A stretch of 64,000 nt of DNA, from contig CAUJIO010000009.1 of assembly GCA_963205315.1 (NCBI GenBank), positions 1 through 64,000 on the forward strand, in the 5' to 3' direction. Below the pieces are notes generated by a model. That model saw only the letters and a program-made list of their open reading frames with translations, searched no databases and had not been told where the DNA came from. Shown here piece after piece: positions 56,054 through 64,000 of the stretch (the stretch's first letter is position 1; each line of letters opens with the position of its first letter). Origin of the DNA: Pseudomonadota bacterium. GTDB taxonomy: Bacteria; Pseudomonadota; Alphaproteobacteria; Rhizobiales; Aestuariivirgaceae. A program made the translations under genes and the position numbers.

Positions 56054-56890
56054 TCATTTGTCCTGTCGGCGGCTTTCGGCAAGGAGATTGAGGATGGATG
56101 CCGCTGTTTCCTCGACCGATCGGCGAGTGACGTCGATCATCTGCCAATCGTTTTCCGAACAGAGATTCTTCATGAGCATGAGCTCGTCAGTAATCAGTCT
56201 GGGATCGATATAGTCAGTTGATCGCGTCTCTTTGAGGGAGAGAAGGCGGTGACGGCGGATCTGGGCGATGCGTTCTGCTGTTGCAAACAATCCAACGATC
56301 AAGGGGCCCTTGAGACCGTTAAGTTTCGCCGGCGCCGGTACGCCCGGAACAATGGGAATATTTGCGGTTCGAACACCTCGTTGCGCGAGATAGATCGAGG
56401 TTGGGGTTTTTGACGTGCGGCTTATGCCAAGAATGATGACATCGGACTTTTCGATGTCTTCGACGCTCTGACCATCGTCATGGGCCATAGTGAAGTTGAG
56501 TGCGTCAATGCGCCGAAAATAGTCGGAGTTCAACGCGTGCTGACCAGCGACCTGCGGCGTCGATTGGGTGTTGAGATATTGCGCGAGGATGGCGATGATC
56601 GGGTCAAGGATCGAGACGCAGGGTACGCCGAGTGTCTCGCAGTATTCTTCGAGATGCCGTCGGATGTCGGGATTTACGAGGGTGAAAAGAACGATGCCCG
56701 GTTGCTGTTCAATTTCGCGGAGTGCCCGATTCAGTTGGGAAGGTGTTCGGACCAGCGCATAGATGTGCGCGACTGGCCGGAAATCGGAATATTGCGCTGC
56801 GGCAGCTTTTGCTACTGTATTGAGGGTTTCACCGGTCGCGTCGGAAACCAGATGGAGATGGTAGAAGCGCTGTGAACCGGACTGGGTCAT
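56054..56890 (-). CDS. ppsR: PPDK regulatory kinase/pyrophosphorylase (DUF299)
   Basis: The 278-residue protein has H-L-V-S-D-A-T-G-E-T and the P-loop-like G-I-S-R-T-S-K-T-P-T-S. DUF299 proteins phosphorylate and reactivate pyruvate phosphate dikinase or PEP synthase. The homologue flanks the origin beside hemE in Rickettsia and Caulobacter. It begins 324 bases left of hemE and is transcribed away from it, leading the operon with maf, aroE, coaE and dnaQ. Confidence 0.93.
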   Translation of the reverse strand: MTQSGSQRFYHLHLVSDATGETLNTVAKAAAAQYSDFRPVAHIYALVRTPSQLNRALREIEQQPGIVLFTLVNPDIRRHLEEYCETLGVPCVSILDPIIAILAQYLNTQSTPQVAGQHALNSDYFRRIDALNFTMAHDDGQSVEDIEKSDVIILGISRTSKTPTSIYLAQRGVRTANIPIVPGVPAPAKLNGLKGPLIVGLFATAERIAQIRRHRLLSLKETRSTDYIDPRLITDELMLMKNLCSENDWQMIDVTRRSVEETAASILNLLAESRRQDK

Positions 56891-57065
56891 GGTGTTGATA
56901 GAATGTGGATAGTTCCATGAGCGGAAGAGGAACCGAAAAATCTGGGCGACATGTCAGTTGGGTATTCCACAGCTTTGGGTCTGCAGCAATGAATGTCTTC
57001 CTGCTGGGGACAAGGGCGACAATGAGGCTCCGTCGGGCGGAGTTGTTCGGATTGGCTGATAGCTA

Positions 57066-57080
57066 TTAACGTTTTGTTAA
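57066..57080. promoter_or_regulatory. CtrA-type box 1 (TTAA-N7-TTAA)
   Basis: TTAACGTTTTGTTAA has both TTAA half-sites of the CtrA binding consensus with exact 7-base spacing. It lies in the ppsR-hemE gap. CtrA bound at such sites represses initiation in Caulobacter. Confidence 0.7.
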
Positions 57081-57086
57081 TAGGTC

Positions 57087-57101
57087 TTAATTTTGGGTTA
57101 A
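57087..57101. promoter_or_regulatory. CtrA-type box 2 (TTAA-N7-TTAA)
   Basis: TTAATTTTGGGTTAA is a second full site, starting 21 bases after box 1, i.e. two helical turns, so both would face the same side of DNA. A further TTAA half-site lies at 57118-57121. Confidence 0.7.
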
Positions 57102-57214
57102 TGCCTTGCAGCGGTCTTTAAGAAATAAATGTTGGACTTGACCTGTGGATTGAGACCGGATTGGGATGTATGCCGCTTCCAGTCCTGCAAACAACAGTTA
57201 CAAGAAGAGATAGA

Positions 57215-58261
57215 ATGATAGATTCTAGGAAGGGTGGGAAACCCTTGGGCGGTGCGTTGCTGGATGTTCTTCTGAAGAGAACTCCCGATCGGCGGCCAAT
57301 GTGGTTCATGCGTCAGGCCGGCCGGTATCTTCCTGAATACCGGGCTGTCCGGCAGCGGGCAGGGTCCTTTGTGGATCTCTGCTATAATCCTGAACTGGCT
57401 TCGGAAGTAACGATCCAGCCTCTACGTCGATACGATCTTGACGCTGCGATATTGTTTGCGGATATCCTGGTGGTCCCTCACGCCATGGGTCTTCCTTTGA
57501 AGTTTGAGGAGGGAGAGGGCCCGGTTCTGGGAACCGTGAGGAGCCTGGATGATCTGAATGCGCTTCGGCCTCTGGTCGGTTCGTACGAGGTCAGGCAGGT
57601 TTGTGAGACTGTAAGGTTGACGAGGAGTAGCCTCGCTCATGACAAGGCTTTGATTGGTTTCTGTGGTGGGCCATGGACTGTGGCGAGTTACATGGTTGCG
57701 GGTGGAAGCTCTGACAGGGTGGATGCGAAGCTCGCTGCCTTCCGGCGGGACCCGTGGTTTGTGGCGTTGATTGATCGCTTGGTTGTGGAATCCATAGAAT
57801 ATCTGGTCGCGCAAGCAGAAGCAGGCGCGCAGGCCGTGCAGATCTTTGATTCCTGGGCGGGTGATCTTATCGGAGACCAGTTGCAGGAATTTGTGCTTGA
57901 TCCAATCTCGCGGATCGTTGCCGGTGTTCAGGCCCGGGTTCCGGGGTTGCCCGTCATTGTGTTTGCGCGGGGTATCGGATCCCATCAGATCAAGGCCGCG
58001 GCTCTTCCGGGCGTCAACGCGATTGGCGTGGAGACGGAGCTTGGGTTGGACGAGATTGATGTGAACGTTGCACTTCAGGGAAATCTTGATCCGGTCGCCC
58101 TTTTGGCTGGTGAGGACGTTGCCAGGCGTGAAGCGCTGATGGTCTGTGCCAAGATTCCGAAGGAACGGCACATCTTTAATCTGGGCCACGGCATCCGTTT
58201 GGGTACGGACCCGGCGGTGGTGGGTGCAGTTGTGGATGCTGTGCGGCGGAGTGAAGCCTAG
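57215..58261 (+). CDS. hemE: Uroporphyrinogen decarboxylase
   Basis: From ATG 57215 it has 348 residues. It has W-F-M-R-Q-A-G-R-Y-L-P-E-Y, the Asp in F-A-D-I-L-V-V-P and G-F-C-G-G-P-W-T. It converts uroporphyrinogen III to coproporphyrinogen III. It is the first rightward gene beyond the candidate origin. Upstream in-frame starts exist (57161), but the shorter one matches relatives. Confidence 0.96.
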   Translation: MIDSRKGGKPLGGALLDVLLKRTPDRRPMWFMRQAGRYLPEYRAVRQRAGSFVDLCYNPELASEVTIQPLRRYDLDAAILFADILVVPHAMGLPLKFEEGEGPVLGTVRSLDDLNALRPLVGSYEVRQVCETVRLTRSSLAHDKALIGFCGGPWTVASYMVAGGSSDRVDAKLAAFRRDPWFVALIDRLVVESIEYLVAQAEAGAQAVQIFDSWAGDLIGDQLQEFVLDPISRIVAGVQARVPGLPVIVFARGIGSHQIKAAALPGVNAIGVETELGLDEIDVNVALQGNLDPVALLAGEDVARREALMVCAKIPKERHIFNLGHGIRLGTDPAVVGAVVDAVRRSEA

Positions 58262-61502: not shown

Positions 61503-61518
61503 TGTTTCACGTGAAACG
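61503..61518. other. parS site 1 (ParB-binding centromere)
   Basis: TGTTTCACGTGAAACG matches the parS consensus TGTTTCACGTGAAACA in 15 of 16 positions, with a perfect GTTTCACGTGAAAC core. It is in the mnmE-mnmG gap. Confidence 0.92.
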
Positions 61519-63430: not shown

Positions 63431-64000
63431 ATGCAGCAGCCGACCGTGCCGACGAATTGGCCGCGAAGTATAATGTTTCACGTGAATCACTATCAGCCTT
63501 AAGGCTCTATGTTGATCTCTTGCTGACCTGGCAGCGGCGGATCAATCTGATCGGACCCGCAACGATCGAGTCGATCTGGGAGCGTCACATCCATGATTCA
63601 TTACAGGTGCTACCATTGATTCCCAGAGGAACCACCGCGATTGCGGAATTGGGATCGGGAGCGGGCATACCCGGGATGATCGTGGCAATTGCTGGTGGAT
63701 ATCAGGCGCATCTCTACGATAGCAATAGCAAGAAATCAGCGTTCCTTCGCGAAGCCATCCGCCAGACGGGTATTCGGGCCCAGGTCCACACTCTCCGACT
63801 GGAAGACCTTAAATTCGATCCCCATCTACCAAAGGTGCAATGTGTGCTGGCTCGCGCCTTGGCACCATTGCCATTACTACTCGACTACGCCGAACCTTTC
63901 ATCAAAGCCGGCGCAATCGGTCTTTTCCACAAGGGACAAGATGTTGACCTTGAATTGACCGAGGCTACCAAATATTGGACACTCAACGTGTCGAAACACC
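63427..64000 (+). CDS. rsmG: 16S rRNA (guanine-N7) methyltransferase RsmG (GidB), cut by window edge
   Basis: The frame opens at ATG 63427 and runs off the window after 191 residues without a stop; the family length is about 205-215. It has Y-N-V-S-R-E-S, the SAM motif [11 protein letters not shown] and V-L-A-R-A-L-A-P-L. It methylates G527 of 16S rRNA; loss gives low-level streptomycin resistance. parA and parB would be expected just to the right. Confidence 0.95.
63474..63489. other. parS site 2, inside rsmG coding sequence
   Basis: TGTTTCACGTGAATCA matches the parS consensus in 15 of 16 positions. It encodes residues N16 to S21 (N-V-S-R-E-S) of RsmG, a known way for alphaproteobacterial rsmG to carry a parS. 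Confidence 0.85.

Follow-up and report, generated by a model that had tools for sequence, protein, structure and literature searches.

The chromosomal origin of Caulobacter crescentus, Cori, has been located experimentally between hemE and COG1806, and is described as containing DnaA boxes, an IHF site and five CtrA sites (PMC1914354). An earlier, sequence-only reading of the DNA analysed here held that the ppsR–hemE pair flanks the origin in both Caulobacter and Rickettsia, and the same study agrees; for Rickettsia, the title of Brassinga 2002, which that study cites, mentions sites for CtrA and IHF (PMC1914354). The Sinorhizobium meliloti origin is described as being without CtrA motifs and unbound by CtrA (PMC4433202), and Brucella CtrA is reported as not binding the origin (PMC2877005). 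A 2015 review treats CtrA sites as unseen in origins outside the Caulobacters, with Rickettsia prowazekii as a possible exception (PMC4468827), and a further paper deals with the location of CtrA-pathway genes rather than with origin sites (PMC8116508).

The DNA analysed here (the window) comprises bases 1–64,000 of the 105.7-kb contig C9 of an Aestuariivirga-like Hyphomicrobiales draft genome (4.67 Mb, 112 contigs, 99.86% complete); Aestuariivirga belongs to the order Hyphomicrobiales. The closest named records by HemE identity are Aestuariivirga litoralis (73%), an Aestuariivirga sp. (70%) and one titled Bradyrhizobiaceae (68%). The candidate oriC is a 324-bp gap (56891–57214) with a GC content of 0.47, whereas 20 sampled stretches of the genome average 0.606. 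To its left, on the minus strand, lies ppsR (56054–56890, start at 56890), encoding a DUF299-family (PRK05339) regulator of pyruvate phosphate dikinase/PEP synthase; to its right, on the plus strand, lies hemE (57215–58261), encoding uroporphyrinogen decarboxylase (TIGR01464). ATG 57215 is preferred as the hemE start because the longer frame, from TTG 57161, contains an in-frame TAA within the extension in relative L009 and because a AAGAAGAG stretch stands ahead of ATG 57215, both of which make the TTG start unlikely. An Rfam scan of 50–64 kb at gathering scores gave no match.

The AT-richest patch of the window, measured as the AT content of 50-mers, is located inside the gap (57051–57108) and is a candidate unwinding element; nowhere else in the 64 kb does a 50-mer reach 70% AT. 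TCCACA cores are found in the gap at 56904, 56966 and 57144, and when a 324-bp frame is moved along the window in 20-base steps, three such cores occur together only at the gap. Across 364 kb of the genome, neither three TCCACA cores nor a pair of CtrA sites recur in any other 324-bp stretch. Two DnaA-like boxes lie at the ppsR end on the minus strand: a weaker one at 56893–56901 (2 mismatches, TGTTGATAG as written on the plus strand, read by eye), the TGT.GA of which is invariant in nine aligned gaps, and one at 56904–56912 with a single mismatch (CTATCCACA on the minus strand). These are followed by a plus-strand box at 56963–56971 (TATTCCACA, 2 mismatches), with TCCACA invariant in 9/9 aligned gaps, and by a decayed minus-strand box at 57005–57013 (TGGGGACAA on the plus strand, read by eye), a position that holds TGTGGACAA or TGTGGAAAA in L004, L005, L006, L008 and L009. 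Finally, the alignment reveals a conserved promoter-like block on the plus strand before hemE (57138–57169), containing TTGAC and the DnaA-like box TGTGGATTG (57144–57152). Whole-nonamer boxes with at most one mismatch are not more frequent in the window than chance allows (7 found, 6.2 expected), and the gap contains one of them, at 56904; the weight given to the boxes thus comes from their clustering and conservation, not from their number in the window. The exact IHF consensus WATCAANNNNTTR is absent from the gap, also when its sixth base is left free (the only degeneracy scored), as is GANTC.

The gap contains two predicted full CtrA sites, both exact matches to TTAA-N7-TTAA: TTAACGTTTTGTTAA at 57066–57080 and TTAATTTTGGGTTAA at 57087–57101, the second starting 21 bp after the first. 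They are the only two matches in the 64-kb window, and when the whole window was shuffled 100 times, two or more arose only once. Across the genome the motif occurs 31 times, compared with 19 for the backward control, and inspection of the list shows the pair in the gap to be the only one within 100 bp. The pair (57066–57101) overlaps no DnaA box that we found, the nearest being those at 57005–57013 and 57144–57152. The genome encodes a CtrA homologue (C69:119395), 85% identical over 224 residues to a Caulobacter CtrA probe sequence, and about 8 kb from this gene is a DUF1153 gene, a family that we take to be SciP. The sequence-only reading had described a 324-bp gap between divergent DUF299 (ppsR) and hemE genes that contained an AT-rich patch, three degenerate DnaA-box-like nonamers and TTAA-rich sequence. 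This description holds throughout: the gap is bounded by the ppsR and hemE starts given above, the window's AT-richest 50 bp fall within it, the nonamers form the window's only cluster of three TCCACA cores, and the TTAA-rich sequence is, specifically, the two exact predicted CtrA sites.

Nine gaps of close relatives, that of the window included, were aligned. Of the 16 CtrA half-site positions, 15 are invariant, compared with 21/227 positions outside the marked motifs, and conservation of the marked motifs exceeds that of all 278 circular shifts; as the motifs were picked on the window's own sequence, this is a test of conservation and should not be read as an unbiased search for motifs. Seven of the nine gaps have both CtrA sites in perfect form, L008 and L009 each retaining one perfect site, and the distance of the sites from hemE is nearly constant (243–245 and 222–224 bp before the HemE RQAGR codon). 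L010, a close relative among the nine, has no DnaA box at one mismatch or fewer; the same is true of L039 and L040.

We retained 80 hemE loci from the genome collection, 65 of which have a divergent ppsR adjoining hemE. In these 65, the 500 bp before hemE (32.5 kb in total) contain 138 DnaA boxes with at most one mismatch, and 111 fall in the other bins out to 6 kb, 23 in number and adding up to about 723 kb, a 28-fold higher density just before hemE than in the flanks. Full CtrA sites are confined to the same bin (19 sites, with 0 in the other 23). The 15 hemE loci without ppsR have 16 DnaA boxes in the 7.5 kb before hemE, together with four CtrA sites there and two elsewhere. Counted by gap, at least one DnaA box is present in 69 of 78 ppsR–hemE gaps and a full CtrA site in 26 (two loci being counted twice). 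One record in the collection, L061, is titled Bacillus subtilis and yet has a rhizobial-type ppsR–hemE locus; a HemE tree groups it with Phyllobacterium and Brucella, and the record is probably mislabelled or contaminated.

Loss of ppsR within the genus separates the boxes from the gene pair. Of 30 genomes sampled from the genus, a whole-genome family search found a ppsR-family gene in 11 and none in the other 19; completeness reaches 90% or more in 24 genomes of this sample, 9 of which have ppsR. Among the 11, ppsR adjoins hemE in all nine that have hemE coordinates. In all 16 ppsR-less congener loci (L012–L014, L016, L018 and L020–L030), maf directly faces hemE; 14 of these loci come from genomes in the 30-genome sample with no ppsR anywhere, the other two (G027 and G028) being outside the sample. 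The 400 bp before hemE contain DnaA boxes in 16/16 of these loci (38 in 6.4 kb), compared with seven in a 16-kb control taken farther out, which is mostly coding (maf) and so exaggerates the contrast. CtrA sites follow the same distribution, with 14 in the 400 bp before hemE and none farther out. The boxes persist beside hemE in the absence of ppsR, and therefore origin-like sequence stays with hemE.

Partitioning elements are also close to the gap. Two parS sites, each with one mismatch, are located at 61503–61518 and 63474–63489, 4.3 and 6.3 kb from the gap, and the best ParB match begins at C9:65049, a short way past the window end, so that two parS sites and parB lie 4–9 kb from the gap. 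The whole genome has three parS-like sites (at most two mismatches), two of which are those adjoining the gap. In eight other genomes, 13/13 parS sites (at most one mismatch) are within 20 kb of hemE. The dnaA gene of the source genome is on another contig (C37), and in six of eight other genomes, where both genes are on one contig, dnaA is 196–727 kb from hemE. The dnaA locus was considered as a rival origin and rejected: the 1.5 kb upstream of dnaA lack both DnaA boxes and CtrA sites, and the contig carries no parS.

GC skew gives a less uniform picture. The sequence-only reading had expected the cumulative skew minimum at the gap; as far as can be read on the gap's own contig of a 112-contig draft, the minimum is elsewhere, at 53.4 kb within the window alone and at 103.7 kb when the next 40 kb of the contig are included. 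Skew on this contig does not change sign at the gap (−0.008 to the left and −0.013 to the right, the latter made up of +0.14 at 57–62 kb and −0.029 beyond), and KOPS sites are too few to be informative on orientation (five on the contig in all). For relatives, we compared sampled stretches of eight genomes, oriented to hemE, using one-sided tests uncorrected for multiplicity and excluding stretches more than 1.2 Mb from hemE or spanning it (8 of 20 stretches were used for G052). A change at hemE stands out in two of the eight: the congener G004 (−0.016 to the left, +0.032 to the right; P = 0.0003), which shows the expected turn at hemE, and the family member G030 (a rise from +0.021 to +0.076; P = 0.008). 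G059 and G052 trend the same way non-significantly (P = 0.11 and 0.14), and G046, G039 and G013, the last being the sampled relative from the window's own clade, show no change at hemE (P = 0.4, 0.8 and 0.86). In the congener G022, skew is positive on both sides of hemE (P = 0.28). Stretches of its contigs C1 and C3 were examined apart from the eight-genome comparison: skew has nearly one sign per contig and is opposite between C1 and C2, and hemE is 200 kb inside C2. The broad sign change in G022 is therefore not at hemE but at least 200 kb away, a pattern that could stem from rearrangement, from faulty assembly or from relocation of the origin. As skew is uneven among relatives, we kept it out of the main support and count it as neutral to mildly adverse. 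The 2007 study likewise describes skew as insufficient for several alphaproteobacteria (PMC1914354).

A separate compositional feature surrounds the gap. Between 54600 and 61500, genes in either orientation are G-rich on the plus strand at their third codon positions (aroE 0.18, maf 0.28, ppsR 0.33, hemE 0.30 and mnmE fading to 0.09, with coaE, to the left, at −0.11). The 4-kb GC skew at 56–60 kb, +0.18, exceeds that of all 359 sampled background windows, and a comparable rise is seen in L033–L036. This block has no sign change at the gap and no simple account from transcription or two-way replication. In G013, seven stretches over about 150 kb of contig C20, from about −60 to +90 kb of hemE (L137–L143), have a GC content of 0.60–0.62, compared with 0.65–0.68 in thirteen other sampled stretches of that genome. 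The contig of the window shows a dip as well, with a GC content of 0.56 at 50–60 kb, though its far end is similarly low, at 0.57.

To place the CtrA sites in the order, we counted TTAA pairs in 107 gap or 400-bp upstream sequences. The N7 spacer accounts for 50 pairs, whereas the remaining spacers between 0 and 24 average 3.1, and a chance origin was rejected on this basis; the next-highest counts, 22 at N17 and 10 at N6, are those that cross-pairs of 21-bp tandems give, and control motifs at N7 are rare (AATT 4, TATA 2, ATAT 3). With loci sorted by record title, Hyphomicrobiales other than Rhizobiaceae and kin had a full site in 14 of 21 loci, and Rhizobiaceae and kin in 1 of 28 (Fisher P = 2 × 10^−6, uncorrected for kinship). 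Three of the 14 (L033, L034 and L035) belong to the window's own clade, and 16 of the 65 ppsR loci, unplaced or from other orders, stand outside this count, L098 among them having a site. The HemE tree puts L073, counted as non-Rhizobiaceae, among Rhizobium and Shinella; moving it gives 14/20 and 1/29. On this tree, built by a quick method, 36 of 102 rows have a CtrA site and at least 16 changes are required (five loci with gammaproteobacterial titles were excluded, and L033, a copy of L009, L035, a copy of L005, and the truncated L019 were dropped here and in the spacer counts and site distances). Gain and loss have thus been frequent, and an ancestral site is likely but unproven.

In several genera the position of the site is also nearly fixed. 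Outside the genus, it starts 245–260 bp before the HemE RQAGR codon in eleven loci, including those of Bosea, Methylocella, Rhodoblastus and Hansschlegelia; in Methylopila the distance is 237 bp, and in the nine close gaps it is 222–245 bp. Exceptions are the Cohaesibacter loci (408, 387; 455), L059 (424) and Agrobacterium vitis (181), and in other congeners the sites are scattered, from 91 to 372 bp before the codon. It is about as likely as not that direct CtrA control of the origin is an old Hyphomicrobiales feature, lost toward Rhizobiaceae and Brucella, the models behind the view that the order is without it. On this reading, it kept a near-fixed place (222–260 bp before RQAGR) in Aestuariivirga, Bosea, Methylocella, Rhodoblastus, Hansschlegelia and Methylopila, and in Aestuariivirga it would have evolved into a tandem lock, spaced by two turns, on the patch that unwinds.

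Taken with its relatives, the ppsR–hemE gap is very probably the chromosomal origin of this Aestuariivirga-like bacterium, and would be a hemE-type origin such as that of Caulobacter. The sequence-only reading had proposed as much, and the proposal is supported by synteny with Caulobacter, DnaA-box enrichment, conservation, persistence of the boxes without ppsR, the adjacent parS and parB, and a distant dnaA without boxes. Among the features of hemE-type alphaproteobacterial origins, the locus has hemE/COG1806 adjacency, a DnaA-box cluster, raised AT content and TTAA-N7-TTAA sites; among those of bacterial origins in general, it has a parS/ParB system nearby. We suggest that DnaA would load on the weak boxes toward either edge of the gap, that the AT-rich patch (57051–57108) would then melt, and that replication forks would depart both ways, with ParB on parS 4–6 kb away moving the new origin. 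CtrA control of the gap is a prediction: a 21-bp step corresponds to two turns of the helix, which would place a pair of CtrA dimers on one face, and phosphorylated CtrA on these face-aligned sites in the AT-rich patch may keep the origin shut in non-replicating cells.

Against this proposal stand the uneven skew, the absence from the gap of an exact IHF consensus and of GANTC, and the weakness of the boxes; the sites for CtrA and DnaA might also belong to promoters. The gap might then be only a two-way promoter region for ppsR and hemE, at which DnaA and CtrA serve as transcription factors, the origin being located elsewhere. The conserved TTGAC block with its DnaA-like box before hemE is what such a region would contain, both proteins are described in the literature as regulating promoters as well as origins, and skew does not change at the gap in the window's clade. 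However, boxes remain in all 16 congener loci that have lost ppsR, parS and parB cluster beside the gap, the same gene pair flanks the experimentally located Caulobacter origin, and the 1.5 kb upstream of dnaA is devoid of boxes, which together make a promoter-only role very unlikely. That the gap is a relic, the clade's working origin having moved and the skew being still unsettled, is extremely unlikely. It might be suggested by the broad sign change between the two large contigs of G022, at least 200 kb from hemE, but a recent inversion or assembly error could explain that pattern, G022 itself (L029) retains three boxes before hemE and has its only parS (at most one mismatch) adjoining hemE, and the motifs are conserved in the nine close gaps.

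A narrower alternative accepts the gap as the origin and assigns the two CtrA sites to hemE transcription instead of initiation. The pair is upstream of the conserved TTGAC block, a site is found at a near-fixed distance from hemE in several genera, and the pair overlaps no DnaA box that we found, unlike the arrangement described for Cori. Set against this, the pair falls within the window's AT-richest patch, and in ppsR-less congeners the sites are scattered 91 to 372 bp before RQAGR, more loosely than expected of a promoter element. We consider this assignment possible but on balance unlikely, and retain the origin with predicted CtrA control of initiation as the preferred reading.

What is new here is a predicted CtrA site at a near-fixed distance before hemE in several Hyphomicrobiales genera. 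A literature search covering the titles and abstract openings of open-licence papers returned, among the matches listed, no report of CtrA sites in Hyphomicrobiales origins; such sites at the origin were previously thought to be missing in the order's model species. If a conserved, spacer-exact CtrA site is indeed present in many Hyphomicrobiales origins, the rhizobial models would be the exception, and the finding would help to date the rewiring of origin control. The question becomes testable in cultured environmental species.

Compared with described systems, the locus shares the hemE/COG1806 pair with the R. prowazekii origin, which is far more AT-rich (82.55% AT) and belongs to a distant lineage (PMC1914354). 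S. meliloti is of the same order, and its relative S. medicae (L105) has a ppsR–hemE gap with one DnaA box but, unlike the gap described here, no full CtrA site. In Hyphomonas neptunium, a Caulobacterales species, ChIP-seq places CtrA next to the origin (PMC7200025). Differences from Cori, as it is described, concern the CtrA sites: two perfect sites form a 21-bp tandem in the AT-rich patch, whereas the five of Cori are spread over the region, and the pair is clear of the DnaA boxes found, so we do not class it as Cori-like in that detail; an exact IHF consensus was also not found in the gap. In other respects Cori is the closest parallel, with the same flanking genes, an AT-rich patch, several weak DnaA boxes and TTAA-N7-TTAA sites (PMC1914354), and with parS within 8 kb (PMC4468827).
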